Below, piece by piece: positions 2,739-21,758 of a stretch of DNA of 35,855 bases. The stretch covers positions 1 to 35,855 of the forward strand of contig CAMBRG010000022.1 in the NCBI GenBank assembly GCA_945869845.1, read 5' to 3'. Source of the DNA: Opitutus sp. GAS368. Lineage in GTDB: Bacteria > Verrucomicrobiota > Verrucomicrobiia > Opitutales > Opitutaceae. The notes beneath the pieces are model-generated. The model was not told where the DNA came from and did no database searches. It was given only the letters and a program-made list of their open reading frames with translations. Both the position numbers and the translations under genes were made by a program. The stretch's first letter is position 1; every line of letters begins with the position of its first letter.

Positions 2739-3671
2739 TTAGTTATTGGCCCGTTTTACTTGGTGGAGATAGCCGCGCAGAGAGTTTGCAGTTCCAAGTT
2801 GCAGGTGTTCGGCCAACCACGCGATCGCGGCTCCGGTTTGTTGGCGAATCTCGCCCGCCATTTCGATTTTCCAGCCCTGTTTCTTCGGTTTGGTCGTTAG
2901 GTCGGAGGCTGTTTTTCCGCGCTTGGCCAAGTTGGCGGACAAGCTGGCGTCCCAGCTTGCTTGTCGCAGCTCGATGCGTTCCGCACGTGGCAAGCCAGCG
3001 GTGAGGGCGCGGGCGGCGTACTCTTTGGCGAGGGCCCGTCTCCACGCGAGCGTGCCAATCGCCCAGCCTTGCGCCAAGCCCACCAAACCTTCGCGTTGCC
3101 AAGCCGCCTCGTCGTGCGCGAGGGCCTTCAAGTAAACGGTGTAAGCCCGATGACCCGATGCATCATCCGGCCAATCCCCGAGGGCTCGCAGCCAGTCTTG
3201 AGCCGTGAGCGACTTGGGGCGCGGACCTTTCAGCAGCGCGGCGAGACTGCTCCAACGAAAGCCGGCGACCTGTTCTGGCGGCGCGATTTTCGCTCTCACC
3301 GGATTGAGGTGGATGTAGTTCACCACGCGGGTCAACGCGGCGACGTTTTCGATCAGTAGCGCCTGATAACGGCCTTGGAACAGATGCCCGCTTTCCCTGC
3401 GCAAGCGATTGAACCGGGTGGCCATCGAACTTTGCAGCCAATGCATCCCCTCGCCCAAGTTCGGCTCCGGGGTCTCCACCGCCAGGTGAAAATGGTTCGG
3501 CATCAGCACATAGGCGTGAACCCGCCAGCCGAACTTCTCCGCCGCTTGAAACAGCGTGACCAAAAACGCTTCCGCCGCTCCCACGCTATCAAACAAATCC
3601 CGACCATAACTGCCGCGGTTGATCACGTGGTGCAACGCTCCGGGGTATTCGATCCGTAGTCGTCGTGCCAT
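2739..3671 (-). CDS. REP-associated tyrosine transposase (RAYT, Y1/HUH family)
   Basis: A 310-residue protein with an IS200/IS605-type Y1 nuclease domain in the first half. The HUH motif is H60-F-H62 in VLMPNHFHLAV and the likely nucleophile is Y102 in HLFQGRYQALLIE, followed by the characteristic NYIHLNPVRA. The C-terminal third (about 270-300, IAWLAEHLQLGTANSLRGYL) looks like the helix-turn-helix found in many RAYTs. RAYTs are single-copy, domesticated relatives of IS200 transposases that act on REP-type hairpins. A palindromic repeat of the GTAGGCAGCCTGC type lies just upstream at 3754-3846, and a second copy interrupts a gene at 5498-5613, so those are plausible substrates. ATG at 3671 has GAGG only 2 nt upstream. 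The frame is intact. Confidence 0.92.
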   Translation of the reverse strand: MARRLRIEYPGALHHVINRGSYGRDLFDSVGAAEAFLVTLFQAAEKFGWRVHAYVLMPNHFHLAVETPEPNLGEGMHWLQSSMATRFNRLRRESGHLFQGRYQALLIENVAALTRVVNYIHLNPVRAKIAPPEQVAGFRWSSLAALLKGPRPKSLTAQDWLRALGDWPDDASGHRAYTVYLKALAHDEAAWQREGLVGLAQGWAIGTLAWRRALAKEYAARALTAGLPRAERIELRQASWDASLSANLAKRGKTASDLTTKPKKQGWKIEMAGEIRQQTGAAIAWLAEHLQLGTANSLRGYLHQVKRANN

Positions 3672-8239: not shown

Positions 8240-9441
8240 GTGTGAGCGAAGGCCAGAGCGGGGAGACGGAGGCGCGAGGGCGGCAGGAAATGTTGCGGCG
8301 CCGGTTGGTCGCGCTCGGATTTGACGAGGTGCGGTTCGCGACGTTGGCGGAGTTAGGCGGAGACCGGTTGAAGGCATGGTTTGAGGCGGGGCACCACGCG
8401 GATATGCAGTGGATGGAACGGACGGCGGAGAAACGGTTGAAGCCGGAGCTGGTTTTGGCCGAGGCGCGCTCGGTGATTATGTTGGGCGTCAGCTATGCGG
8501 ATGCCGGGCGAGGCGCGAAGGGTGAAGGGCGAGAGGCCGGTGAGGCTGAACCCCAGCGGGCGAAGTGGGCGCGGTATGCGTTGCACGAGGATTATCACGA
8601 CACGATCAAAGTGGGTCTGATCGCGGCCGGGAAAGTGATCGGGGAGATGTATGGCGCGACGCGGGAAGACCTGCGGGCGTATGTCGATACCGGCCCCGTG
8701 CTCGAACGGGGGTGGGCGGCGAAGGCGGGACTCGGGTTCATCGGGAAGAACGCGATGTTGATCTCGCGGCGGCATGGGAACTGGTTGTTTTTGGCGACGA
8801 TTTTGACCCGGCAGGAATTTTTTCCCGACGCGCCGGTGCGGAAGCAGGCGAGTGATTTCGCGGATGTGGGGCTGCTCTGCGGGAAGTGCACGCGGTGTTT
8901 GGACGCGTGCCCGACGGAGGCGTTTGCGGCTCCGGGGGTGGTGGATGCGCGGCGGTGTGTTTCGTATCAGACGATCGAGAACAAAGGGATTATTCCGCGG
9001 GAGCTGCGGGCGGGAATCGGGAACCGGATCTATGGCTGCGACGTGTGCTTGGAGGTGTGTCCCTGGAACCGGTTCGCGGTGGCGGGGCGGGAGGTGTTGC
9101 TGGTGGCGAGGCGGGAATTGGCGGGATTGAGCGTGCGGGAGATTTTGGCGCTGACGCCGGCGCGGTTTGCGGAAGTTTTTCGGAAGACTCCGATCAAGCG
9201 GGTGAAACTCGCGGGGCTGCTGCGGAATGCGTGTATCGTCGCGGGGAATTCGGGCGACGTGAGCCTCTTGGAACCGTTGGTGATGCTCGCGCGGCATGAG
9301 TCGGCCTTGGTGCGGGCGCACGCGGTGTGGGCGGTGCGGACGCTAGGCGGCGAGTCTCGGGCGAGTGCGCTGCTGAAGCCGGCGCGCGCGGCGGAAACGG
9401 ATGCGACGGTGGTCGCGGAATACGAAGACGCTAGGCCTTAA
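8236..9441 (+). CDS. queG: Epoxyqueuosine reductase
   Basis: A cobalamin- and iron-sulfur-dependent enzyme for the last step of queuosine synthesis in tRNA wobble position 34. About 401 residues from GTG 8236; GTG 8242 and ATG 8290 are alternatives. The conserved Asp is D151 in YVDTGPVLERGWA, followed by GLGFIGKN. Eight cysteines for two 4Fe-4S clusters are visible: C215, C218, C221, C225 (CGKCTRCLDACP) and C241, C268, C271, C275 (CDVCLEVCPWNRF). The C-terminus (about 325-390) forms HEAT-like repeats for tRNA binding. It overlaps aroK by 4 nt and runs convergently 11 nt into the thioesterase gene. Confidence 0.95.
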   Translation: MSVSEGQSGETEARGRQEMLRRRLVALGFDEVRFATLAELGGDRLKAWFEAGHHADMQWMERTAEKRLKPELVLAEARSVIMLGVSYADAGRGAKGEGREAGEAEPQRAKWARYALHEDYHDTIKVGLIAAGKVIGEMYGATREDLRAYVDTGPVLERGWAAKAGLGFIGKNAMLISRRHGNWLFLATILTRQEFFPDAPVRKQASDFADVGLLCGKCTRCLDACPTEAFAAPGVVDARRCVSYQTIENKGIIPRELRAGIGNRIYGCDVCLEVCPWNRFAVAGREVLLVARRELAGLSVREILALTPARFAEVFRKTPIKRVKLAGLLRNACIVAGNSGDVSLLEPLVMLARHESALVRAHAVWAVRTLGGESRASALLKPARAAETDATVVAEYEDARP

Positions 9442-9835
9442 ACGCCGCGGTCATCACGGCGACGACGTTGGCGGGCGGGCGCACGGGTCGGCCCTGAAGA
9501 TCGATGAACGCATGAGCGGATTGACCGGTGGCGAGGAGTTCTTCGCCCCGGAAAACTTCGTAATCCAAATGAATTCGAAGAAGTGGTTTTTCGCGCAGAT
9601 AGGTGACGATGGTGAGAACGTCGTCGTAAAGGGCCGGGCGGGAATATTTGGCGGAAATTTCGAGCACAGGCAGGCGGTAGCCCTCGGCCTCAAGCTGACG
9701 ATAGGGGAGGCCGAGTTCCTTAAGCAGGGTGGTGCGGCCGATCTCAAACCACGGGAGATAATTCGCGTGGTAGACAATGCCCATCATGTCGGTCTCGGCG
9801 TAGCGAACGGTGACTTGAGAGCGGGAGACAATCAT
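9431..9835 (-). CDS. Acyl-CoA/acyl-ACP thioesterase, YbgC-like hotdog family
   Basis: A 134-residue single-hotdog 4HBT protein. The catalytic aspartate is D16 in RYAETDMMGIVYHANYLPWFE, the diagnostic YbgC-type motif. Such enzymes hydrolyse acyl-CoA or acyl-ACP thioesters in the cytoplasm. It lies downstream of the GT4 gene 9832-11022, but its ATG (9835) overlaps that gene's stop, so on the minus strand the order is glycosyltransferase then thioesterase in one transcript. Given the acyl carrier and ketosynthase genes nearby, it could release or edit acyl chains for that pathway, but a general housekeeping role is equally possible. Confidence 0.88.
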   Translation of the reverse strand: MIVSRSQVTVRYAETDMMGIVYHANYLPWFEIGRTTLLKELGLPYRQLEAEGYRLPVLEISAKYSRPALYDDVLTIVTYLREKPLLRIHLDYEVFRGEELLATGQSAHAFIDLQGRPVRPPANVVAVMTAAFKA

Positions 9836-11022
9836 GGGTGTTCAGCTGGAAAAGAGGCGTTTGATTCGGCTGGTTTGTCGATGGCGGGGTTGGCGCCGAA
9901 AAGGGCCTCGGCGGACTCGGTCCAACAATTGCGCCTAGCCCATTCGCGACCGGCGGTGCCGAGACGTTGGCGCAGGGCCGGATCGTGGATCAGTTTCTCA
10001 AAGGCGGCGGCAAGTTGCGCGGGTCGATGGGGCGGCACGAGCAGACCGGTCACGCCATCTTGCACCGCTTCGGCCACCCCGCCGACGTTGTGCGCGACCA
10101 CGGGCAGCCCGTGAGCGGCAGCCTCGAGATAGACGAGGCCAAAGCCCTCAACGCTGCGGGCGTGATTGATGCTCGTCATCGCAAAGATATCGGCGCGATC
10201 GTAAAGGGTGGTGAGTTCTTCGTCGGGAATATTCCCAAGAAAACGAACGGTGAGATCGGGGGTGGCGGTAGCGGCTTGACGAATCGCCTGCTCGTAGTGG
10301 CCCTTGCTCTGGCCGCCCACGATCCAGTATTCGAGGCGAGCCCGGTCGGAAGCGGGGAGCAGTTGCAGAGCCTGAAGCGTGTACAGTTGGCCCTTGCGGG
10401 GATGGATGCGGCCGACCGTGAGCACGACGATTTTGGCGCGGGGGGCGTCGGACTTGAGGGGAACGACGGCAAAATCCGAGCGAAGGGCGCCGGGCGTCAG
10501 CACGATCTTGTTGGCGGCTTCCGGAAAATGGGTGAGGAGAAGTTCCTGCGTGTAGTTGGTCAGAGTGCTCACGCGCGTGGCATGTCGGATTAACCGACCC
10601 GCGAGGGCGCGACGGATGGGGCTGCTGGCGAATTTCAAGATTTCGGAACCATGGAAGGTGAGCACCAATTGCTTTGGGCGGAAGGCCCGGAAGAATTGAA
10701 GCAGCATCATGGTCAACATCGGGCCCGGCTCGGGGAGGTAGACGGTGGCGTAACGCAACCGCCGACGTGCGCGGATGAATTCTCGGGCGAGTTGAACTTG
10801 GCACCTGAGATCATGGGTGCCCTTGAGCGGCAGCCGCCGCAGCCGGAACGGCCAGACTTTCTCTTGATCGGGCTCGGCGGATTGAGCCCAAACCTCGGTT
10901 TCGTAACCTAAACTCGCCGCGGCCCGGGCAATTTCTTCGGTGAACGTCGCGATACCGCCGCGCACGGGGTAAAATTCATGGGTAATGAGAAAAATGGAGG
11001 GAACGGAGGCAGGAACGCTCAT
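9832..11022 (-). CDS. GT4-family glycosyltransferase
   Basis: About 396 residues with a GT-B fold. The N-terminal Rossmann domain opens with IFLITHEFYPVRGGIATFTEEIARA, the glycine-rich loop typical of GT4 enzymes. The C-terminal nucleotide-sugar domain has VLTVGRIHPRKGQLYTLQAL and the donor-binding motif SVEGFGLVYLEAAAHGLPVV. It should transfer a sugar from an activated donor at the cytoplasmic face of the membrane; donor and acceptor are unknown. ATG 11022 is preferred over TTG 11037. It is divergent from the ACP-dehydratase fusion gene (about 195 bp between starts) and overlaps the thioesterase gene by 4 nt. Confidence 0.9.
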   Translation of the reverse strand: MSVPASVPSIFLITHEFYPVRGGIATFTEEIARAAASLGYETEVWAQSAEPDQEKVWPFRLRRLPLKGTHDLRCQVQLAREFIRARRRLRYATVYLPEPGPMLTMMLLQFFRAFRPKQLVLTFHGSEILKFASSPIRRALAGRLIRHATRVSTLTNYTQELLLTHFPEAANKIVLTPGALRSDFAVVPLKSDAPRAKIVVLTVGRIHPRKGQLYTLQALQLLPASDRARLEYWIVGGQSKGHYEQAIRQAATATPDLTVRFLGNIPDEELTTLYDRADIFAMTSINHARSVEGFGLVYLEAAAHGLPVVAHNVGGVAEAVQDGVTGLLVPPHRPAQLAAAFEKLIHDPALRQRLGTAGREWARRNCWTESAEALFGANPAIDKPAESNASFPAEHP

Positions 11023-11217
11023 GCGCGGAGATGGCAAAAGGACGGCCCGAAGTCATCCGGGCAGGTTGACCTATTGGGCGTTGGCCTCGCGCTGGCAAGT
11101 GCGCCGATGAACCCAACCGAAAAGTCCGAGAGGGCCGTGGTCGGTCGGAAATCACCGGCGGACCGAGTTAGAAATTGGGGTTTACTTTCAAGCCTCCGAA
11201 TCTAAAACCAAGCGATA

Positions 11218-12186
11218 ATGCCAGACGCAGTTCAACCGATCCCCGGGAGTAGCAAGCCATTTTCAGCGCCATCGAAGCCCTTCGCTCCCGAAGACGAATC
11301 GGCTCTACGTGAGGCACTTAAACGTTGTTCACCGTCCGCCTTCGAATCCGCGGTGCAGTTCCGAAAGACGGGAAACCCCGAGCATGTTCCGGCCGTCGTG
11401 ATCGGAATCGTCGAACGCTTTGTTGAGCCTGATCTGCGGATTAAGTTAAAAGACGCGGATGATGATCTCCGGCTGATTGAAGACCTGGGAATTGATTCCC
11501 TCACGATGATGGAAATCGTGATTTTGGTCGAAGACGTGCTCCAACTTTCGATCAACAATGACGAGCTAAGGAATCTGCGCACGGTGGGTGACGTGAAGAC
11601 CTTCATTGATTGCAAAATCCGGGGACTGGCTTTGCCGAAACCGACTAAGTTTATCCCGATCGAGCAAATTGCTGCGGTGATGCCGATCCAGCCTCCGTTC
11701 CTGTTCCTGAATGAGGCGTCGGTAAGTTCCAGCGGGGCAAACGGTAAATATAAAATAACCGGCCAAGAGTTCTTTCTCCAAGGGCATTTTAAGAATAACC
11801 CCGTGATGCCGGCGTCGATCATGCTGGAGGCATTGGGTCAGTTGGCGGTGCTCTACCTTTTGGAAGGCGCGGCACCGGAGCCCGGCAAGGTGATCAGCTC
11901 GTCCCTAATTTACTTCACCGGTTGTGAGGGCGTCAGGGCGCATCGGGTTTGCCGCCCCGGCGATATTCTCACGCTTTCGATCAAGCCGAAGCGGATGAAA
12001 ATGCCTTTGGCGACGTTTGAAGGTGCGATTCGGGTAGGTCAGGAGAAGGCGGCAATCGCCGAAGAAATCACGCTCACCTTTGGTTATGCCGAGGCGGTAA
12101 TGCCGCCCCCGGTCACGGAGATAAATGGCCACACGACACCCAAACCGGACGCGGTCGTGGCGACCTCGCCGATGCGGGTGGCATGA
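11218..12186 (+). CDS. Fused acyl carrier protein and FabZ-like hydroxyacyl-ACP dehydratase
   Basis: A 322-residue two-domain protein. Residues about 55-135 are an acyl carrier domain with the phosphopantetheine serine S94 in LGIDSLTMMEIV. Residues about 148-290 are a hotdog dehydratase with the catalytic His in FLQGHF (H190) and Glu in IMLEALGQLA (E204), matching the FabZ pair. A low-complexity leader (1-30) and a Pro-rich tail flank them. Separate ACP and FabZ proteins are the rule, so the carrier probably hands its own substrate to the attached dehydratase. A terminator follows at 12216. Its placement before a ketosynthase gene argues for a dedicated fatty-acyl or polyketide-like pathway. 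Confidence 0.88.
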   Translation: MPDAVQPIPGSSKPFSAPSKPFAPEDESALREALKRCSPSAFESAVQFRKTGNPEHVPAVVIGIVERFVEPDLRIKLKDADDDLRLIEDLGIDSLTMMEIVILVEDVLQLSINNDELRNLRTVGDVKTFIDCKIRGLALPKPTKFIPIEQIAAVMPIQPPFLFLNEASVSSSGANGKYKITGQEFFLQGHFKNNPVMPASIMLEALGQLAVLYLLEGAAPEPGKVISSSLIYFTGCEGVRAHRVCRPGDILTLSIKPKRMKMPLATFEGAIRVGQEKAAIAEEITLTFGYAEAVMPPPVTEINGHTTPKPDAVVATSPMRVA

Positions 12187-12215
12187 ACGCCTGATTTGGA
12201 TCGTTTGGTTTATGG

Positions 12216-12243
12216 AATGGCGGCCTTTGAGCCGCCATTTTTG
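12216..12243 (+). terminator. Rho-independent terminator after the ACP-dehydratase gene
   Basis: AATGGCGGC, a short loop, GCCGCCATT and a T run form a strong GC-rich hairpin 30 bp past the stop codon at 12186. It implies that the ketosynthase gene at 12561 has its own promoter. TTGACC at 12451 with AAAATT 17 bp downstream is a weak candidate. Confidence 0.8.
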
Positions 12244-12270
12244 TGGGTAATCGAGCGGGTCTTCCCGAGT

Positions 12271-12401
12271 GATACCAACGTCCCTTGATCAACAGACTGT
12301 CAGTGCGAGAAGCGTAGCGCCGAAGCAATCCAGCTGGATTGCCACGGCGCGCTTCGCGCACCTCGCAATGACATACGGCTGGAAATTAAGGGACGTTGGT
12401 C
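12271..12401. repeat. Palindromic repeat (MITE/REP-like), short copy
   Basis: Termini GATACCAACGTCCCTTGAT (12271-12289) and ATTAAGGGACGTTGGT (12385-12400) are inverted repeats identical or nearly so to those of 719-1010. The core (about 12302-12372) contains TGCGAGAAGCGTAGCG, GCAATCCAGCTGGATTGC and CACCTCGCAATGACA. It is close to the reverse complement of 914-983, so the core sits in opposite orientation in the two elements. It lies between the ACP-dehydratase terminator and the ketosynthase gene; the remaining 12402-12560 is presumably the ketosynthase promoter and leader. Confidence 0.8.
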
Positions 12402-12560
12402 TGAGCCGTCGATGGTCCGACGGACCCGCGGAAACCAGCCATCTCTCGCGTTGACCGCAGTCGAATTCCCTCAAAAATTTGTCCCATTCTTTAACGTCCG
12501 CGCAAACGCCAACCTCTTTTGCCGGTCTCTGCGCTCCTCGCAACCTACCTCGCACCACGC

Positions 12561-13823
12561 ATGCCCAGAGTATTCATTACCGGTCTCGGCTTTATCACTA
12601 GTATTGGTAATGACGCTGCAACAGTCACAAGAAGCCTGCGCGAGTTGCGTCATGGATTAGAGCTTTATGCTCCGTTTCAGCACCCTGAGGTTCCGGTCAA
12701 AGTAGCGGCGCCGGTTAAGGGTTTTTTCACTGATTCGGTCGATGTCGAGGATTGGACTTTTCCGGCGGGCATCGTGATCAAGCGCGAGGTCTTGCGTGGA
12801 ATGTCTCCGCATGTGGTTTACGCGTGGTGCGCGATGCAGCAGGCGATCGCCGACGCGAAACTGGGTGATGCGGAGGTTTCCAATGAGGCGACGGGTCTTT
12901 ACGCGGCTTCAGGGGGATCGCCATTTTTAATGGGCCACATGTTGGAGCGGATGCACAAGCAGGGGGTGATGCGGTGTTCACCGCTCGGGATTGTGGCTTC
13001 GATCTCCGGGGCGGTGCAGTTTAATCTCGTGGCCCATTTCAAAATCAAGGGCTCATCCTGTGGCTTCGCGTCGGCGTGTGCCTCTTCTTCTCATGCTCTC
13101 GGATTTGCCTATGACGACTTGGTGACTGGTCGGCAAAAGCGGATGTTTGTCGTGGGCGCGGAGGACGGGAATATGGATGCGATTTTACCGTTTGCTGGAA
13201 TGCGGGCCTTGTCTTTATCGACGGATCCTTCGAGTGCCTCGCGGCCGTTCGACACGGGACGTGATGGATTTGTGGGCACCGGTGGCGGCGTCGTGCTGGT
13301 GCTCGAGACGGAGGAGGAAGTCATTCGTCGTGGGGTCACACCCTATTGCGAGGTCGCAGGATGGGCCCAAGCTTCCGACGGGCATAATGTCGCGATTTCA
13401 CATCCGGAGGGCTTGGGGTTGCGCGCGGCGATGGCGAATGCGTTGCGGGTGACGGGCACTGCGCCTGAGGACGTGGACTATGTGAACGCTCACGCGACCT
13501 CCACGCCGATCGGTGATGCGTCGGAGGCGAAGGCGCTGCGGGCCGTGTTCGATCCGTCCGGGATGCGTCCGGCGATCAGCAGCACCAAGGCTTTGACGGG
13601 GCATGGGCTCTCGCTTGCCGGCGCGATGGAGAGCGGCTTTTGCGCCTTGGCCGTGCGGGACGGATTTATGCCGGGCTCGGCACACATTACCCAGCTCGAC
13701 CCGGAGTGTGCGGGTTTGAACATCATCCGCTCAACCTTGGCGGCCCAGCCCAAGGTCGCTCTCAACAACGTCAGTGGCTTCGGCGGGGCCAACGTCAGCA
13801 TTGTTTTTAAACAAGCTCGTTGA
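12561..13823 (+). CDS. Beta-ketoacyl-ACP synthase (FabF/KAS II-like)
   Basis: A 420-residue thiolase-fold condensing enzyme that would extend an acyl chain with malonyl-ACP by decarboxylative condensation. The Cys-His-His triad is present: C173 in SACASSSHALG, H311 in VNAHATSTPIGD and H348 in KALTGHGLSLAGA, with K343 just before the last. GFGGANVSIVF closes the fold. The ATG at 12561 (MPRVFITGLG) is chosen because the protein family starts there; earlier in-frame codons encode nothing family-like. Replacements around the active site relative to classic FabF suggest a specialised enzyme. Its neighbours point to a pathway-specific rather than housekeeping role. Confidence 0.92.
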   Translation: MPRVFITGLGFITSIGNDAATVTRSLRELRHGLELYAPFQHPEVPVKVAAPVKGFFTDSVDVEDWTFPAGIVIKREVLRGMSPHVVYAWCAMQQAIADAKLGDAEVSNEATGLYAASGGSPFLMGHMLERMHKQGVMRCSPLGIVASISGAVQFNLVAHFKIKGSSCGFASACASSSHALGFAYDDLVTGRQKRMFVVGAEDGNMDAILPFAGMRALSLSTDPSSASRPFDTGRDGFVGTGGGVVLVLETEEEVIRRGVTPYCEVAGWAQASDGHNVAISHPEGLGLRAAMANALRVTGTAPEDVDYVNAHATSTPIGDASEAKALRAVFDPSGMRPAISSTKALTGHGLSLAGAMESGFCALAVRDGFMPGSAHITQLDPECAGLNIIRSTLAAQPKVALNNVSGFGGANVSIVFKQAR

Positions 13824-13924
13824 ACGCCCGCGCTCCAGAGTTGATGCGATGCGGGGGCAGCCGGCAATTAGGACGAATTGACCCGGCGGCGCGGGTTTGC
13901 TCGGCTCACGGCTCATCCTGATCC

Positions 13925-15157
13925 ATGTCGAAGGTTCGCATTCTCATCCTCACTTCGTCGACTGGCGGCGGCCACGATGCACGGGCGGAGGCTTTCGCCG
14001 AATGGTGTTTTCAGCTTTACCAGCATCAGGTCGATGTGCGGATCGAGCAGATGCTTGAAAAATCCTCCGTGCTGAACCGCGCGGGAGTCGGGTTCTACAA
14101 CAAAATCCAAAAAGTGGCTCCGCGGCTGCACACGGGTTTTTACGCGTTCGTGGAACTGTTGAGTTACATCAACCGCCGAGACGTGACCTTTGGCCGCACT
14201 TACTTTCTTGAGGTTCTGCGCGATTACCAACCCCACCTGGTTTTCAGTGTTCATGATTGTCTAAATCGGGGTTACTTTCAGCTGGCCCGGGCTACCCTCG
14301 GGGCGGATCGCGTGCGCTGCGTGACGTATTGCGGGGAGTTCTCCGGCGGTTGGGGCTATTCGCGAAATTGGATCGAGCCCTCGGCGGATCTTTATTTTTC
14401 CCGCACGCCGACCGCGCGCGATTTTGCCGTGAAATCAGGGATCGCGCCGGAGAAATCGCGGGTGCGGGGCAATCTGATGTTGCCGCGTTCGGTGCTCGAG
14501 ACGATCGCGCCGGAGGAACGCGGCGCCTTGCGCGTGAAACGTTTTGGTCTGCGGCCTGATCTCTTCACGGTCTTTCTCGCGACGGGTGGAAACGGCGCGA
14601 ACCAGCATCTGCAGCTTTTGCCGGCGTTGGTGAAGCACGCCGACCGGGTGCAGGCCATCGTGATCTGCGGAAAGAACAAGGAGTCCTACAACGAGTTGGT
14701 CCACTGGCGCGCCAATCATCCGGAATTTAACTGCTACATCGAAGGTTATTCGGAAGTGGTCCATCTGCTCATCCAGGCCAGCGATGTGATCGTGACGCGT
14801 GGCGGCACCACGACGTGCGCCAAAGCGCTTCATTTCCGGTGCCCGATTATCTTCAACGCTTTCCATGGCATCATGCCGCAGGAGCAACTGACTTGGAAAT
14901 TTTTCCGCAACGGTGCCGCCTCGGAGAAGATCGAGAGCGCCGGTGATTTCGCCCGCATCATCAACACCTGGATGGGCGACCCGGCGGCTTATGCGAAGGT
15001 GAAGGAAAGTTTTCTGCAGCTGCGCTACGATGAAGACCCGACGCTTCTGATCGAGGAGATCGTGGAGCTAGCCAATAGCGTGGCCCAGACAAAGTTGAAA
15101 CGCCGGGTGTTCCCGCCGCTTAACGACCATGGCCTTGCGATGAAAGCGGCCGAATGA
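13925..15157 (+). CDS. Glycosyltransferase, diacylglycerol glucosyltransferase/MGDG synthase-like (GT28-type)
   Basis: A 410-residue GT-B enzyme. The N-terminus ILILTSSTGGGHDARAEAFAEW matches the MGDG-synthase N-terminal domain, which binds a lipid acceptor. The C-terminal half has FLATGGNGANQHL, the loop VIVTRGGTTTCAKAL and IIFNAFHGIMPQEQLTWKF, the usual UDP-sugar region of GT28 enzymes. Such proteins add glucose or galactose to diacylglycerol or similar lipids on the inner membrane. That assignment fits the neighbouring acyl-chain and oxoamine synthase genes. ATG 13925 follows the ketosynthase gene by about 100 bp on the same strand, so cotranscription is likely. Confidence 0.87.
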   Translation: MSKVRILILTSSTGGGHDARAEAFAEWCFQLYQHQVDVRIEQMLEKSSVLNRAGVGFYNKIQKVAPRLHTGFYAFVELLSYINRRDVTFGRTYFLEVLRDYQPHLVFSVHDCLNRGYFQLARATLGADRVRCVTYCGEFSGGWGYSRNWIEPSADLYFSRTPTARDFAVKSGIAPEKSRVRGNLMLPRSVLETIAPEERGALRVKRFGLRPDLFTVFLATGGNGANQHLQLLPALVKHADRVQAIVICGKNKESYNELVHWRANHPEFNCYIEGYSEVVHLLIQASDVIVTRGGTTTCAKALHFRCPIIFNAFHGIMPQEQLTWKFFRNGAASEKIESAGDFARIINTWMGDPAAYAKVKESFLQLRYDEDPTLLIEEIVELANSVAQTKLKRRVFPPLNDHGLAMKAAE

Positions 15158-15224
15158 TCGGGGCGTGCGCCCGCGCGCAATGCGCTTGGCCGGCGGGCGC
15201 TGGGGGCTCTAGCGTTACGCCATC

Positions 15225-16445
15225 TTGCCTGCACCCAAACCGGTAATCGCCTATCTGTTCACGACCTTTCCGAAGCGCACGGAAACGTTTTTGCAGCGGG
15301 AGATCATTGCGATGCGCGCGCAGGGCGTGCAACTGCGGCTCTACTCTTTGTGGGGCGGGCTGGATTCGTTTCGCGGTCTGCCCGTGGCCCGATTCAACAA
15401 GTGGCGGTTGCTGACTCTTTTTTGGATGATTCCCTGCGAAGGCGCGCGCCGGCCCGAGGTGTTACGTCAGGTGGTGCACGGTCTTTTCACCCGACGGCCC
15501 CCGTCGTGGATTAATTTTTGGGAGAACATGCTGGGCGCCGGATTTGCCTGCCTTTTCGCCGGTGATTTTCGGCGGAATCCACCGACGCTGGTGCACGCGG
15601 CGTGGGGTGGGGCGCCGGCGACGGCGGCATGGCTGCTTTGGCGACTCGACGGGCATCGTTTCAGCGCCGCCGCTCATGCGTATGATCTTTTTGAGCACGG
15701 AGGCGACTGGTGGCTGCGCGACAAACTGGAGCATGCCGCGTTTGTCCACACCTCGACGGAAATGGGTCGGACAGCGTTGATCACGTTGGGCATCCCGGCG
15801 GAGAGCGTGGTTCGCATCCGCAGAGGTTTAGACCAGATGCCGACCGTGAAACGATTACGCGCCTCAAGGGAGCCCTTGCATTTGATCTGTGTGGCGCGGC
15901 TTGTAGAAAAAAAAGGGCTGGATCATCAGCTGCGGATTTACGCTGCACTCCGGGCCGCAGGCCTACCGTTCCACGCGCGGATCGTGGGCGATGGACCGCT
16001 CCGGCCGGCGCTGGAAAAACTGGCCGGCGGTTTGGGGATCGCGGCCGAGGTGACGTTCTGCGGGCACTTGGCCCAGCATCAGGTGTGGGAGCAATTCGAG
16101 TGGGCCGATGTGTTGCTGCATACCGGCGTGATCGCGGCCAGCGGCGATCGGGACGGCTTGCCGAATGTGATTCCTGAAGCGATGTCGTGCGGAGTGGTGG
16201 TCGTGACCACGCCGACCGCCGGGACGACTGAAGCAATCACGGACGGGGTTAGTGGTTTTGTCGTGCCGGTGGAAGCGACTGCGCAATGGGTGGCGGTCCT
16301 ACGCCGACTCTCAAACGACGACGCGGTCGCCGAGCAGGTGCGGAGTCAGGCGCGACGTTGGGTGGAGGAAAATTTTGACGCGCATCGCAATGCGGCGCGT
16401 TTACTCGAGGCCTTCGAGCAAGGGGTGGCGGAGAAATCGGCATGA
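15225..16445 (+). CDS. GT4-family glycosyltransferase
   Basis: 406 residues from a TTG start at 15225; no in-frame ATG gives the N-terminal strand IAYLFTTFPKRTETFLQREI, which is typical of polysaccharide GT4 enzymes. The second domain has LICVARLVEKKGLDHQLRIYA, IVGDGPLRPALEKL and the donor-binding NVIPEAMSCGVVVVTTPTAG. It is likely to act at the cytoplasmic membrane face on a lipid-linked or membrane lipid acceptor. Its stop overlaps the start of the next glycosyltransferase (ATGA at 16442-16445), which indicates translational coupling. Confidence 0.88.
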   Translation: MPAPKPVIAYLFTTFPKRTETFLQREIIAMRAQGVQLRLYSLWGGLDSFRGLPVARFNKWRLLTLFWMIPCEGARRPEVLRQVVHGLFTRRPPSWINFWENMLGAGFACLFAGDFRRNPPTLVHAAWGGAPATAAWLLWRLDGHRFSAAAHAYDLFEHGGDWWLRDKLEHAAFVHTSTEMGRTALITLGIPAESVVRIRRGLDQMPTVKRLRASREPLHLICVARLVEKKGLDHQLRIYAALRAAGLPFHARIVGDGPLRPALEKLAGGLGIAAEVTFCGHLAQHQVWEQFEWADVLLHTGVIAASGDRDGLPNVIPEAMSCGVVVVTTPTAGTTEAITDGVSGFVVPVEATAQWVAVLRRLSNDDAVAEQVRSQARRWVEENFDAHRNAARLLEAFEQGVAEKSA

Positions 16446-17476
16446 TTTTTTTTGACGTCACGAAATCGGGCGGAGCCGGACATCGCTCCGGTTTATTGCG
16501 CGTGAGCGCGCGGTTGGCGGACGAGTTGGGCGATGCGGTGCGCGAGGTGAGTTGGACGAGTTGGGATCGGAGAATGTCGGCCGGAGACTGGTTCTTTACC
16601 GCCGAGCTTTTTTCAGAGGAAGAGAGGCCCGGGTTCTCCGCGTTTCTGGCCGCCCGGTCCGGTCGTGTCGCTGCGGTATTCCATGATGCCATCCCGCTCA
16701 AGTGGCCGCAGATCACTTGGCCGCAGAGTGTGGCGCGGCATCCGAGTTACATGAAATTACTGGCGCAGTTCGATCGCGTGTGGGCCGTGTCGGCCGCGAG
16801 TTGCGCCGAGCTTTCGGGGTTTTGGCGGTGGCAAGGACTTGAACAGGTGCCGCCGTTGGATGTGCTCGCGCTCGGTGCGGACGCGGATCGGGCGCCGCGG
16901 GTGACCGGGCGGGTAGAGGCGGTGCGGTCGAAATCATTGCTCTCGGTGGGAATTTTGGAGCCGAGAAAGAATCAGGCCCTTTTGCTGGATGTGGCAGAGA
17001 CGCTTTGGCGCGAAGGTTTGGATTTTGAATTGAATCTCGTTGGTCGGGTGAATCCTCATTTCGGGCGTCCGCTGGAGAAACGAGTGAAGGCGATGGCCAA
17101 AAAATTTCCGGGCCTGCGCTACCACGCGGCGGCGAGTGATGCCGTGGTGGCGAGATTATACGCCGACGCTCGGGCGAGTGTTTTTCCGACGATCGCGGAG
17201 GGCTGCGGACTTCCCCTGTTGGAGTCGCTTTGGCAAGGCGTGCCGTGCGTCTGTAGCGATTTGCCGGTGTTGCTCGAGAATGCGAAAGGCGGCGGTTGTT
17301 GGCCGGTCACGACCAACGATCGAGCGGCGTGGACCGAGGTGCTGCGTCGCGTGCTGACCGACGACGAACTCGCCGTCCGAGTGCGAAACGAGGCGAGGAG
17401 CCGAGAGCTACCGACTTGGGCGGCCGCAGCAGCGACGCTTCGGGCCGCTCTGCCCGAAGGGCTCAGAGCTTCTTGA
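16442..17476 (+). CDS. GT4-family glycosyltransferase, paralogue of 18960-20189
   Basis: 344 residues. The N-terminal domain is short and opens with IFFDVTKSGGAGHRSGLLRV, then AAVFHDAIPLKWPQITWPQ and ARHPSYMKLLAQFD. The C-terminal domain has SLLSVGILEPRKNQALLLDV and the donor-site motif FPTIAEGCGLPLLESLWQG. The FHDAI-LK-P-T-A-R-PSY series is repeated in the GT4 gene on the other side of the oxoamine synthase, so the two are paralogues. A GGAG 8 nt before ATG 16442 is a good Shine-Dalgarno. The 3' end overlaps the convergent oxoamine synthase gene by 14 nt. Confidence 0.88.
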   Translation: MIFFDVTKSGGAGHRSGLLRVSARLADELGDAVREVSWTSWDRRMSAGDWFFTAELFSEEERPGFSAFLAARSGRVAAVFHDAIPLKWPQITWPQSVARHPSYMKLLAQFDRVWAVSAASCAELSGFWRWQGLEQVPPLDVLALGADADRAPRVTGRVEAVRSKSLLSVGILEPRKNQALLLDVAETLWREGLDFELNLVGRVNPHFGRPLEKRVKAMAKKFPGLRYHAAASDAVVARLYADARASVFPTIAEGCGLPLLESLWQGVPCVCSDLPVLLENAKGGGCWPVTTNDRAAWTEVLRRVLTDDELAVRVRNEARSRELPTWAAAAATLRAALPEGLRAS

Positions 17477-18662
17477 CGGCGTAGGCCATCGCGTCGGCGA
17501 TCTTGTCGAGCTGTTCGTCGGTGTGCATCGCGGAAATTGCGGTGCGGATGAGGTCCTTGCCGATGGGCACCGCTGGCGCGATGGACATGACGGTGAAGAC
17601 GCCTTTCTCGAGCAGGGCTTTCCAGAAAGGGTAAACGCGTTCTTTCGAACCGAGCACGATAGGAGTGGCGGGGGTTTCGCTGCCCCAAGTGTCGAGGCCG
17701 AGGTTTTTGAGAATGGCCCGATATTTTTTTGTATTGGCCCAGAGGCGGTCGTGATGTTCCCGCTCCTGCTGCATGATTTCTAGCGAGGCCTGGGCGCACG
17801 CGGCGGCGGCGGGGCTGATGGCCGCACTGAAGACGGTCTGTTTGCCGCTGGTGCGCAGAAACTCGATGGCATCCCGCGACGCAGCGATGAAGCCTCCGGT
17901 GCTGGCGAGAGACTTCGACAGGCTGCCGCAGATCACGTCGACTTTGTCGTTGAGGCCGAAGTGATCGACGGTGCCTCGTCCGTGCCGGCCGAGCACGCCG
18001 AAGCCGTGGGCATCGTCGAGGACCGTGAAGCAGCTATGTTCTTCGGCGATTTCTGTGAGTTCAGGCAGGCGGGCAATGTGGCCCTCCATCGAGTAAACCC
18101 CCTCGATTACGAGGAGCTTTGGGGCATCGCTCGAGGACGCGGCGGCCGCGACTTCGCGGAAATCGTCGGGGCTGTTGTGCGAGAAACGTTCCACGGTGGC
18201 CCGTGAGAGCTGGATGCCTTCCCAAAGGCACGAGTGGATGTTTTTATCGGCGAAAATGATGTCCCCTTTTTGGGCGAAACTGGCGACACTGGAAATGCAG
18301 GAAAGGTAGCCGGCCGAATGCACGTGGCAGGCTTCGCGGCCAAGGAAGTCGGCGAGTTTTTCTTCGAGTTCGATGTGGAAAGCGCGTGAACCGTTTGAGA
18401 TGCGAGCTCCGGTGGTGGAAGTGCCCCATTTGAGCAGGGCGGCGCGGCCGGCTTCGATGACTTTGGGGTGAAATGATAGCCCGAGATAGTCATTGCTCGA
18501 CAGCATGATCATATCCCGGCCGTCGAGGCGCACGTTGGTCCCGTGTTGGGACTCCATGGCGTGGTAGTAGGGGTCGTATTTTAACCGCATCTTCGTCGCG
18601 TAATCGTCGCGAAAGCGGTTTTGAACGGCCTTTTTGTTTTTGCTGAAGAATGAGAGCGCCAT
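17463..18662 (-). CDS. Alpha-oxoamine synthase (serine palmitoyltransferase/AONS-like)
   Basis: A 399-residue PLP enzyme that condenses an amino acid with an acyl thioester and releases CO2. The lysine that binds PLP is K250 in GSLSKSLASTGG; D217 and H219 in LDDAHGFGVLG contact the cofactor. The segment LSSNDYLGLSFHPKVIEAG and the glycine-rich TSTTGARISNGS are family hallmarks. Family members include BioF, Kbl, HemA and serine palmitoyltransferase. No biotin, threonine or haem genes are nearby, while an acyl carrier, a ketosynthase and lipid-type glycosyltransferases are, so a long-chain base or related aminolipid is the favoured product. ATG 18662 is preferred over the in-frame start at 18773, which adds a non-conserved leader. 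Confidence 0.9.
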   Translation of the reverse strand: MALSFFSKNKKAVQNRFRDDYATKMRLKYDPYYHAMESQHGTNVRLDGRDMIMLSSNDYLGLSFHPKVIEAGRAALLKWGTSTTGARISNGSRAFHIELEEKLADFLGREACHVHSAGYLSCISSVASFAQKGDIIFADKNIHSCLWEGIQLSRATVERFSHNSPDDFREVAAAASSSDAPKLLVIEGVYSMEGHIARLPELTEIAEEHSCFTVLDDAHGFGVLGRHGRGTVDHFGLNDKVDVICGSLSKSLASTGGFIAASRDAIEFLRTSGKQTVFSAAISPAAAACAQASLEIMQQEREHHDRLWANTKKYRAILKNLGLDTWGSETPATPIVLGSKERVYPFWKALLEKGVFTVMSIAPAVPIGKDLIRTAISAMHTDEQLDKIADAMAYAVKKL

Positions 18663-18959: not shown

Positions 18960-20189
18960 TTACACTCGGCGATCGAGGGTCGTGAGCCAAGTGGCGAGGT
19001 CGCGGGCGTAGTCGGACCACGTGCGGAAACGGCGGGCGCGGGCGGCGTCGGTGAGGGCGGCAAGAGCGGATGGGGTCGAAAGCAGCCGGGAAATCGCGTG
19101 GGCGATAGAAGGGGCGTCGACGCGGTCGAGGGCGATGCAGCCTCCTCCGCGGGCGGCTTCACCGAGCGCGCCGTGCGCGGAGCAGATACAGGGTTTGCGG
19201 TAAGCGAGGCTTTCCAAAACAGGCAGGCCGAAGCCCTCGATGAGTGATGGGTAAACGGTGAATGCGCAGGCGGTGTACGCGGCGGCCAGTGCGGCCTCGG
19301 TGACGGGGCCGGAGTGGCGGAGTGGGCGACCGGCGGCTTGGAGGGCGTGGACGCGCGCGAGGGCGGCGCGACCGGTCTGCGGGTGCGCGAGGCCGACTAG
19401 GTGGAGTTCAAAGTTCTCGCCGGTGGACCAAAGGGATTCGCAGGCATCGAGGAGGGCGAGGTGGTTTTTGCGGCCTTCGAGCGAGCCAACGGAAAGGAGG
19501 GTGGGGATTTCGGATTTCCGAATTCGGCTTTTCGATTTCTCCGCAGCCAGCCCGAGGGGTTTGTCATCCATCAGATGACAAACGGGGTCGATGCCGAGGG
19601 GGATGACGGTGACGGCGGGGCGGGATGATGGGGAGATGCCGAGCCAGTCCCAGTAGGAGAGGAGCGTGGCGCGGGAGTCTTCGGAGTTGGCGGCGATGCC
19701 GTCGAAGGCGAGGAGTTCGCGGAGATAGGAGGGAAAACGGGCGACGGTTTTGGCAGGGGTGAGTTCGGGAAATTTGAGGGCAATGGCGTCGTGGAAAACC
19801 GCGACGCGCGGGCCGGTCGTCGCGGCGAAGAGCGCGGGGAGCGCGGCGGCGACGGCGGGGGTGAAAAGTTCGGGGACGAGGAGACCGGAAGGTCTGAGAG
19901 CCGAGAGCTGAGCGTGGAGAGATTGGTGGCCGAGGAGGCGGCGGGTGTGGCCACGGAGTTGGGCGGTCACGGGCCAACTGGCGCCGCGTTTTCGGCTGAA
20001 CGAATCGGTGCCGAGATTCTTGAGTTCCCAAGGATCGAGGGGGCGCCACGTGCGTTGGTGGGGATCGAAGGTGACGGGCGCGGCGGCGGGGCCGAGTTCG
20101 CGCCAGAGGGACCGGGCCACGCGTTGGATGCCGGTGCGGGCGCGGGTGTGGCTCGTGTGCGAGAGATCGAGCAGAATGGTGGCGGGCAT
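18960..20189 (-). CDS. GT4-family glycosyltransferase with an in-frame palindrome
   Basis: 409 residues, paralogous to 16442-17476. It begins ILLDLSHTSHTRARTGIQRV, continues AVFHDAIALKFPELTPAKT and ARFPSYLRELLAFD, then has LLSVGSLEGRKNHLALLDAC and the donor motif YPSLIEGFGLPVLESLAYR. Between VIPLGIDP and TLLSVGS lies a 26-residue stretch (VCHLMDDKPLGLAAEKSKSR and IRKSEI), several residues longer than the paralogue's linker. It is encoded by AT-richer DNA that contains a perfect 10-bp inverted repeat (19559-19583). The frame is kept, so the protein may tolerate this as a loop between its two domains. The gene follows a membrane glycosyltransferase gene by 9 nt and is likely in the same operon. 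Confidence 0.88.
   Translation of the reverse strand: MPATILLDLSHTSHTRARTGIQRVARSLWRELGPAAAPVTFDPHQRTWRPLDPWELKNLGTDSFSRKRGASWPVTAQLRGHTRRLLGHQSLHAQLSALRPSGLLVPELFTPAVAAALPALFAATTGPRVAVFHDAIALKFPELTPAKTVARFPSYLRELLAFDGIAANSEDSRATLLSYWDWLGISPSSRPAVTVIPLGIDPVCHLMDDKPLGLAAEKSKSRIRKSEIPTLLSVGSLEGRKNHLALLDACESLWSTGENFELHLVGLAHPQTGRAALARVHALQAAGRPLRHSGPVTEAALAAAYTACAFTVYPSLIEGFGLPVLESLAYRKPCICSAHGALGEAARGGGCIALDRVDAPSIAHAISRLLSTPSALAALTDAARARRFRTWSDYARDLATWLTTLDRRV
19559..19583. repeat. Perfect inverted repeat inside a glycosyltransferase gene
   Basis: GTTTGTCATC (19559-19568) and GATGACAAAC (19574-19583) are perfect arms around a 5-nt loop. The DNA on the right (about 19500-19560, with TTTCGGATTTCCGAATTCGG) is less GC-rich than the rest of the gene. 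It lies in the interdomain linker of the GT4 enzyme and leaves the frame open. Confidence 0.75.
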
Positions 20190-20198
20190 CGTAAGCGG

Positions 20199-21758
20199 CT
20201 ACGGAGTGAGGACGCTCAGGCGGAGATCATAAAGCGCAAAGGCGAGGGCGCGGGCATCGGCGGCCGGGCCGTCGCGCGTCGCCGGGGTGTCGGTGGAGAA
20301 TTCAAGCAAGGTGCGGCCGGGGGCGAGGCGCACGGAGATGGAATGTGCTGCGGTCATTTCGCCGACGGGGCCGCGCCAGAGTTCGCGGTCGCCCTGACGG
20401 ATGATGACGGTGCGCGGAGCGAGGGTGCGGAGGGAGAAGTCGAGTCGGGCGACAACGGGAGCCTCGGCCCAGGTTTCGATTACGAGTTGCGAACGGCCGG
20501 AGCTCCAGGACCAAAGGTGCTTCGCAGTGCGCTCGGCGCCGAACCAGCCGTCGCCGATTTGGACGACGGTGGCGACGCCGCCGCTGCGACCGGCGGAGAG
20601 TTCGCGGGTGTTGACGGGGAAATCGCGGAGGACGAGGAAACCGGCGGCGATGCCGAGGTTGCCCAAAATGAGCCACGCGAGCGCGGTGCGGGCGCGGTGG
20701 GCCAGAACGTTGAAGGCGAGCGTGAGCGGGAGCAGCACGCGGGTGAACGCGCCGGGGTAGCCCTCCCAGACGGCGGTGCCCAAGGTGAGCATGAGCGCGG
20801 CGTAGGCGGCGCCGACGCGCCACCAGGCGTCGGCGAACAGTCGCCAACGCGCGGCAAAGAACGCGGCCTGCACCGCGATCCCCACGACGGCGCCGAGGGT
20901 GGTCCAAGCGAGCAGCGAGTCTTCAAGGATCGTGAGATCGGAGAGGGCGGTGGCGATTTTCTCGACGAGGCCAGAGACGGGTAACGAGAGGTTGGCCCAG
21001 CCGGCGTCGGCGGGACCGATGCGCCAGCGAATGTAGGCGAGCCACGCGAAGAGCGGCGCGGCGACGAAGATGCCGAGGAGAACGTTGCGGAGGGAAATCC
21101 AAGGCCGCGTGACGAGACCGGCGGCACCGAGCAGGGCGGTCTCGCGGGCCAAAGCGGCGGCGGCGAGGAGAGCGGCGGCGGATTTGCGGCGGGCGCGCTC
21201 GGCGGCGAAGAGCGCGGCGGCGAGGAGCAGCGCCATCGGCAGATCGGTGAGGGCGAGGCGCACGCTACTGAGGGCACCGCAGGAAAACATGACGCCGGCC
21301 CACGCCAGCCCTCCGCGGAAATCGGCGACGGCGAGGATGCGCCAGAGCAGCGCGGCGAGGGCGAGCCAGGCGGCGACATTGAGGAACGAGTAAATGTGGA
21401 CGATGGCGGCGGGTTGGCCGGCGGCGAGGAGCCACGCGACGGCGGGCGGAAGAATGCGGCGGGCGCGGTAGGAGAGGTTGTCGATCGCGGGGGCGAGTTC
21501 GGTCGAGCGGAGGAGCGGATCGTAGGCGATTTGCGCGTAGTAAAGACCATCGTAGCCGCCGGTGTCGCGGTGGACATAGACGGGATGTTCGCGGAAAGCG
21601 GCGATCTTCAGGTTGTCGTTGGGCGCGTCGAGCTGGATGAGCGCCGTGAGGCCGTAAACGGGGTGCCAAAAGCGGGCGACAAGAACGAGAAAGAGGACGA
21701 CGGCGGCGACGGCCGCGCAGCGGAGCGGCCAACGAAGGGCGGGGCGCGGGACGTTCAT
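20199..21758 (-). CDS. Multi-pass membrane protein, GYDG family copy 1 (GT-C-like)
   Basis: 519 residues. A first membrane segment (about 12-30) is followed by a periplasmic loop with GGYDGLYYAQIAYDP (GYDG at 68-71) and NLSYRARRILPPAVAW, then around eight to ten hydrophobic segments, and a C-terminal soluble region (about 400-519) rich in beta strands. An acidic Y-D-G in the first loop recalls GT-C glycosyltransferases of the PIG-M/PIG-V kind, which use polyprenyl-phosphate sugars, but the family assignment is an inference. Two more copies occur at 23322 and 27485. Its ATG overlaps the stop of the upstream GT39-like gene by 4 nt, so the pair is coupled. Confidence 0.8.
   Translation of the reverse strand: MNVPRPALRWPLRCAAVAAVVLFLVLVARFWHPVYGLTALIQLDAPNDNLKIAAFREHPVYVHRDTGGYDGLYYAQIAYDPLLRSTELAPAIDNLSYRARRILPPAVAWLLAAGQPAAIVHIYSFLNVAAWLALAALLWRILAVADFRGGLAWAGVMFSCGALSSVRLALTDLPMALLLAAALFAAERARRKSAAALLAAAALARETALLGAAGLVTRPWISLRNVLLGIFVAAPLFAWLAYIRWRIGPADAGWANLSLPVSGLVEKIATALSDLTILEDSLLAWTTLGAVVGIAVQAAFFAARWRLFADAWWRVGAAYAALMLTLGTAVWEGYPGAFTRVLLPLTLAFNVLAHRARTALAWLILGNLGIAAGFLVLRDFPVNTRELSAGRSGGVATVVQIGDGWFGAERTAKHLWSWSSGRSQLVIETWAEAPVVARLDFSLRTLAPRTVIIRQGDRELWRGPVGEMTAAHSISVRLAPGRTLLEFSTDTPATRDGPAADARALAFALYDLRLSVLTP

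Follow-up and report, generated by a model that had tools for sequence, protein, structure and literature searches.

A candidate long-chain amino-lipid locus in Opitutaceae with a serine-palmitoyltransferase-type enzyme and a carrier protein-dehydratase fusion

In a 35,855-nucleotide stretch of Opitutus sp. GAS368 (contig CAMBRG010000022.1, hereafter the window; it is contig 22 of a 3.6 Mb source genome that is 83% complete), we find a gene set that is conserved across the family Opitutaceae. Its most likely product is an unusual lipid that bears sugar and is assembled from a fatty chain and an amino acid. The set has as its central members an alpha-oxoamine synthase of the serine palmitoyltransferase (SPT) clade (17463-18662, minus strand), a protein in which an acyl carrier protein (ACP) is fused to a FabZ-type dehydratase (11218-12186, plus strand), and a FabB/FabF-like beta-ketoacyl-ACP synthase (12561-13823, plus strand). 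We put at roughly 50% the probability that these genes form a long-chain amino-lipid locus, in which a dedicated acyl-ACP module would hand its chain to the SPT-type enzyme and sugars would be added afterwards. A first-pass annotation of the window had named eight reading frames between 9431 and 18662 together with their catalytic residues; all eight were found in place with agreeing Pfam families, and the residues were as it had described them.

The oxoamine synthase and the acyl-chain enzymes

The best NCBIfam model for the synthase is the Bacteroidetes-type serine palmitoyltransferase NF047600 (369 bits, with lower scores for other SPT models, 320 for BioF and 304 for glycine C-acetyltransferase), and its best PDB chains are those of the Sphingobacterium SPT (305 bits). 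The first-pass annotation had held that a grouping with BioF or Kbl would speak against its proposal; in all three of our trees the enzyme instead falls into one set with characterised SPTs, apart from the BioF, Kbl and ALAS (HemA) references. Support for this set was 94/90, 96/94 and 85/92, in midpoint-rooted trees with few references and several long branches, the first and last values lying under the starred support level; in the 94/90 tree the next split, from BioF, Kbl and ALAS, reached only 79/73. The set comprises the Sphingobacterium and Sphingomonas enzymes, a Rubrobacter plasmid homologue and, in two of the three trees, the E. coli B SPT. The Rubrobacter gene precedes one for a GNAT protein with 33% identity to YghO, a protein from the SPT region of E. 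coli, as well as one for an epimerase-family protein that shares 29% identity with the E. coli protein taken as CerR.

The pyridoxal phosphate (PLP) lysine, Lys250, is present in all 71 oxoamine-synthase homologues compared, a set that takes in about a dozen non-orthologues, Kbl and ALAS among them. The synthase has counterparts of SPT Asn52, the PLP-stacking His, Ser185, the Asp and His of the DDAH motif, Lys244 and the carboxylate-binding Arg, some of these residue numbers being assigned by offset. It also retains Gly80, the asparagine of the NG motif, Ser243 and an alanine at the place of SulA Lys281, whereas the Kbl, Thermus, BioF and ALAS references each depart at two or more of these four positions. 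A passage of PMC9304779 gives Lys281 of SulA, the acyl-ACP-using cysteate transferase of sulfonolipid synthesis, as the residue that separates this enzyme from SPTs, which have alanine; the column was placed in our alignment from that passage and its primer. The alanine in the window synthase, together with a score of 191 bits for cysteate acyltransferase against 305 for SPT, led us to reject a cysteate transferase identity.

The fusion protein (PF00550 and PF07977, with PDB matches to FabZ and ACP chains) consists of an ACP at about residues 60-135, bearing Ser94, and a dehydratase at about residues 148-290, bearing His190 and Glu204. None of these three residues varies across the 39 orthologous loci compared (38 distinct sequences, 38-98% identity). 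Similarly, Cys173, His311 and His348 of the ketosynthase (PF00109/PF02801), for which FabB-type chains are the best PDB matches, are invariant in 37 of 37 loci (36 distinct). Among plasmid records no relative of the whole fusion was found, and six match its dehydratase half only. Stand-alone ACPs close to the ACP half occur at seven loci (L063-L069), where the neighbours looked at were TonB-receptor, FecR/sigma-factor and Ig-domain genes; these paralogues were discarded as pathway markers because their neighbours show no clear link.

Conservation, co-occurrence and gene order

We searched 150 genomes of the family, an even sample of a larger group, for the synthase (E<=1e-90) and the ACP fusion (E<=1e-25). 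The synthase was present in 132, with up to 99% identity in relatives, and the fusion was matched in 138, although the match in G109 covers the ACP half only, that in G106 is weak (4e-30), and a few others are fragments or split frames. Ten of the 12 genomes without a fusion match also lacked the synthase (Fisher 2e-9, ignoring kinship), or ten of 14 if G109 and G106 are scored as lacking the fusion; eight genomes lacked the synthase only and two the fusion only. Restricting the count to the 119 genomes with completeness of 90% or more and contamination of 5% or less left nine without the synthase and five without the fusion, all five lacking both (Fisher 7e-7, again ignoring kinship; 5/6 with G109 counted). 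Kinship bears on these statistics, as G044, G098 and G135, three of the five well-assembled double absentees, belong to one genus.

Across the phylum the fusion was found at E<=1e-40 in 29 of 240 genomes, 20 of them in the family. We also scored 28 genomes of the order or class outside the family, made up of the nine non-family fusion matches together with the first nineteen genomes on the list that came from outside the family and had no match: five had both genes, four the fusion only, one the synthase only and 18 neither (p 0.007). Synthase matches were counted here at 53-64% identity and E<=1e-144, the next best match standing at 2e-70. Conserved co-occurrence, the lack of which the first-pass annotation had said would refute its proposal, is seen for the synthase and the ACP fusion both within and outside the family.

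Gene order was compared in 39 relatives whose loci extend 9.5 kb or more downstream from the start of the synthase gene (60 loci minus 19 shorter and two non-verrucomicrobial ones). In 18 of these the ACP fusion, ketosynthase, GT28 and two GT4 genes lie downstream of the synthase on the opposite strand, with synthase identities of 74 to 99%, and in 21 they do not. In G048 the set is divided, a short-chain dehydrogenase/reductase (SDR) gene, the GT28 gene, GT4b, GT4c and the synthase lying at one place and the fusion and ketosynthase with GT4a and the thioesterase at another. In a marine-titled Opitutia genome (L055:4248-14256) the synthase and fusion are linked without ketosynthase or SDR, and adjoin an ABC-transporter and peptidyl-prolyl isomerase gene set.

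Two further arrangements bring the same activities together. At L047 the synthase orthologue directly follows a stand-alone ACP gene, whose product is 52% identical to the fusion over 122 residues; a GNAT/FemAB-like gene of the PF13480 type also precedes this synthase. Such a PF13480-type N-acyltransferase was considered as a general partner and rejected, being found in only 57 of the 150 family genomes at E<=1e-4 and not in the source genome. The synthase is accompanied by an ACP that is linked to it or co-occurs with it and in L047 is adjacent; rhodobacterial SPTs use a dedicated ACP, as reported in a passage of PMC9386255. The second arrangement is a single stop-to-stop frame of 1325-1352 residues, ordered ketosynthase, ACP, dehydratase and oxoamine synthase, in three Opitutaceae genomes: G044, G075 and G041 (L121:6836-10858, minus strand; L124:2142-6116, plus strand; L125:6945-11000, minus strand). 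Pfam was run on two of the three proteins, the third being 72% identical to one of them. An SDR gene and a ceramide-synthase-like GNAT gene adjoin each frame. Both ends of this fusion also have a match in a plasmid protein of Streptomyces anthocyanicus (L127:7001-11839), with 69% covered at 48% identity. Oxoamine-synthase domains in polyketide synthase (PKS) and nonribosomal peptide synthetase proteins are tabulated in PMC3870968, and the accessible part of that paper contains no such four-domain order. G044 is without the window-type synthase and fusion, whereas G075 and G041 carry both systems; in a looser synthase search G044 matched the synthase domain of the fused protein and G149 gave a 32% match.

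The remaining genes of the cluster encode a thioesterase and glycosyltransferases. A YbgC/4HBT hotdog acyl thioesterase (9431-9835, minus strand; PF13279 and TIGR00051, over cut-off) overlaps the gene for the glycosyltransferase GT4a (9832-11037, minus strand; PF00534), and the two stay paired and divergent from the fusion gene even when the synthase lies elsewhere (L071). The E. coli BL21 exbB product (L093:3688-4422) is named 'tol-pal system-associated acyl-CoA thioesterase' in RefSeq, apparently a naming slip. Beyond the ketosynthase lie a glycosyltransferase of the GT28, monogalactosyldiacylglycerol-synthase and diglucosyl-diacylglycerol-synthase-like type (13925-15157, plus strand; PF04101, PF06925; 80 bits with the PRK13609 model, whose cut-off is 500), GT4b (15225-16445, plus strand; PF00534), which adjoins the fusion gene in other families of the order as well (L117, L118), and GT4c (16442-17476, plus strand; PF00534), which is convergent with the synthase gene and overlaps its end. 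GT4d (18960-20189, minus strand; PF00534) is, in many relatives, the same-strand neighbour of the synthase gene. After the lipid genes come three AZOBR_p60025-family cell-surface-glycopolymer proteins (20199-21758, minus strand; 23322-24941 and 27485-29119, plus strand), all scoring just under the family cut-off. A REP-associated tyrosine transposase-like gene (2739-3671, minus strand; below cut-off) lies beside a sulfatase gene (1150-2715, minus strand).

Proposed pathway and competing explanations

In the pathway that we propose, the ketosynthase would lengthen an acyl chain carried by the ACP half of the fusion protein; an SDR ketoreductase would reduce the chain, and the fused FabZ-type dehydratase would remove water. 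The SPT-type synthase, for which we take the ACP fusion to be the donor, would then free the chain from the ACP in a condensation with an amino acid (most likely serine) that gives a 3-keto long-chain base. This base would be reduced and would then receive sugars from the GT28 and GT4 enzymes, while the hotdog thioesterase may edit stalled chains. The product is probably glycosylated, judging by gene adjacency.

No ketoreductase is seen in the window's cluster, in agreement with the first-pass annotation, which had supposed that the pathway borrows one. In 12 of the 21 relatives holding both the ketosynthase and GT28 genes, an SDR gene sits between them, where the window has a gap of about 100 bases (13824-13924), and the SDR is found in 114 of the 150 family genomes at E<=1e-45. 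In the more distant G157 and G222 it is contiguous with the ketosynthase and ACP fusion, the synthase lying 70 and 14 kb from this group, respectively. Its best models are general SDRs (133 bits), followed by FabG (106) and the 3-ketodihydrosphingosine reductase model NF049977 (93), all below cut-off; it may be either a ketoacyl-ACP reductase or a 3-ketosphinganine reductase. In an Oscillospiraceae genome titled as from sheep duodenum (L060:10001-11898), an SPT-like gene is followed by an SDR gene related to the Opitutaceae one. In many relatives, then, the SDR is a neighbouring gene; in the source genome, where this SDR was not found, some other gene would have to supply the activity.

The first-pass annotation had also called the product possibly sphingolipid-like. 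The locus does have an SPT-type synthase and a linked ACP, but a sphingolipid in the ceramide sense is not supported, and the locus does not include the canonical bacterial ceramide pathway. The rhodobacterial ceramide operon (AasR, CerR, AcpR, SPT and ceramide synthase, CerS) shares with it an SPT-type enzyme and a dedicated ACP, but in the window the ACP is fused to a dehydratase and lies beside a ketosynthase. In the loci searched, a Rubrobacter CerR query gave one weak match (E 4e-7, L057), about 8.5 kb from the synthase. A ceramide-synthase profile, built from two sequences only, matched 16 of 100 family genomes at E<=1e-6, 11 of them at more than 220 bits, and gave no match in the source genome, which is 83% complete; genes may have been lost in assembly. 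Ten of the 11 genomes also have the window-type synthase. Of six such regions that were opened, three contained the fused four-domain protein, two were without a recognised synthase, and one, in G060 (L122:4458-7939), contained a set of SPT, ceramide-synthase and CerR genes in a genome that also has the window-type synthase. In view of this separate set, the window-type product may be distinct.

Several observations weigh against the proposed locus. The synthase misses the equivalog cut-off of NF047600 (369 against 640 bits), as does the Rubrobacter homologue in its SPT-CerS-CerR-like gene order (444 bits). It resembles the Sphingobacterium, Sphingomonas and E. coli B SPTs in tree position, PLP lysine, catalytic residues and the alanine at the Lys281 place, but differs from them in lying among acyl-chain and sugar genes and in having alanine for Ser81 and serine for Thr241, replacements shared by 60 and 59 of the 71 homologues, respectively. 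A passage of PMC10196870 lists among SPT features the motif GTFSKS, for which the synthase has GSLSKS, and the contact of Ser81 with the amino acid carboxylate. These differences lower the certainty on serine; the two replacements and the sub-cut-off score indicate that the amino acid could be another one, and on these sequence features serine is a likely but not certain substrate. Over 70 residues the ACP half shares only 30% identity with E. coli AcpR, and the loci searched contained no homologue of AasR, YghO-type CerS or E. coli CerR, the latter two absences weighing against the proposal. The SDR is also missing from five of the six genus mates searched. With regard to linkage, in 20 of the 39 long loci the synthase has no ACP fusion in its neighbourhood, and in many family genomes it is unlinked to the ACP-dehydratase/ketosynthase unit. 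Of the nine genomes outside the family that carry the fusion, four have no close synthase; three of the four belong to one genus, and two of these three match one fusion half only. Finally, the synthase domain of the fused four-domain protein lies in another clade than the window synthase, so this protein is an analogue and not an orthologue, showing the same activities joined elsewhere.

The strongest competing explanation, possible but on the whole doubtful, is that the lipid anchors a surface glycan and is not a free membrane glycolipid, an idea that overlaps with our proposal up to the lipid itself. In the Sinorhizobium rkp-1 and Burkholderia wcb systems, an oxoamine synthase (in the latter presumably the one named WcbT) and a reductase reportedly act alongside a fatty-acid or polyketide synthase to make a special lipid that carries the capsule. 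These systems and the fused four-domain proteins have in common with the window chain-building enzymes and an oxoamine synthase beside glycan genes. The several further GT4 genes of the window and its three AZOBR_p60025-family proteins would fit such an anchor. The synthase domain of the fused protein groups with oxoamine synthases that adjoin type I PKS and LpxC-like deacetylase genes on Caballeronia and Paraburkholderia plasmids, in Caballeronia with polysaccharide export genes there too, and wcb and rkp clusters join PKS to capsule genes (as stated in part of PMC3908369). In the window, however, the genes are separate, the synthase belongs to the SPT set and lies outside the clade of PKS-linked enzymes, and no capsule export genes were recognised in the annotated stretches, some neighbours not being annotated.

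Rather unlikely is a second possibility, that the cluster mixes two unrelated pathways, an ordinary SPT and a separate ACP-dehydratase, ketosynthase and SDR module that supplies the acyl group of some other glycolipid. The two halves lie apart in many genomes, as in G157 and G222, where fusion, ketosynthase and SDR are contiguous and the synthase is distant, and some genomes have one half without the other. Against this stand the co-absence in ten of 12 family genomes, the adjacency in 18 of 39 loci, the ACP beside the synthase in L047 and the existence of the four-domain fusion.

It is improbable that the fusion and ketosynthase make unsaturated or polyene chains, in a FabA/FabB-like or aryl-polyene-like manner, with the synthase incidental. 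The FabB-type chains nearest the ketosynthase and the lack of a recognised enoyl reductase among the annotated neighbour families would suit such a role, but the dehydratase matches FabZ chains and has glutamate where FabA carries aspartate, and the annotated genes included no recognisable chain-length factor, ammonia lyase or ligase. That the synthase is a mis-called BioF or Kbl can be dismissed: it is of the same enzyme family and scores 320 bits with NCBIfam bioF, but all three trees oppose it, bioB, whose rarity makes a BioF identity unlikely, is found in only nine of 61 family genomes (no match at E<=1e-40 in the source genome or in the other 52) against 132 of 150 for the synthase, and the source genome has its Kbl as a separate gene beside a threonine-dehydrogenase-like gene.

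Within the amino-lipid pathway that we favour, the dehydratase fused to the carrier and the lack of a recognised enoyl reductase in the cluster also raise a more speculative variant, to which we give little credence. The synthase might take a trans-2-enoyl chain from the fusion and, with serine, yield 3-ketosphingosine, the base then being glycosylated without a ceramide step. Eukaryotes install the 4-trans double bond by a desaturase. Were this route to operate, it would give a desaturase-free sphingosine-type base, with that double bond set during chain building.

Significance for Opitutaceae lipids

In the open-licence literature we found no paper that joins an SPT to a carrier-dehydratase fusion and a ketosynthase, and nothing usable on Opitutaceae lipids. 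Spt-like proteins have been reported in 22 Black Sea Verrucomicrobiota genomes (PMC11334938, of which the main text does not contain 'Opitut'), and Verrucomicrobiota are barely described as sphingolipid makers in the literature found. Specialised ACPs for SPT are already known; what differs here is the coupling to a carrier-dehydratase fusion and a ketosynthase. If our proposal is correct, SPT chemistry would be coupled to its own chain-building enzymes, and Opitutaceae, an environmental family with the SPT-type enzyme in 132 of 150 genomes, largely co-inherited with the fusion, would join the candidate producers. The locus offers a simple genetic test of which long-chain base Opitutaceae make.

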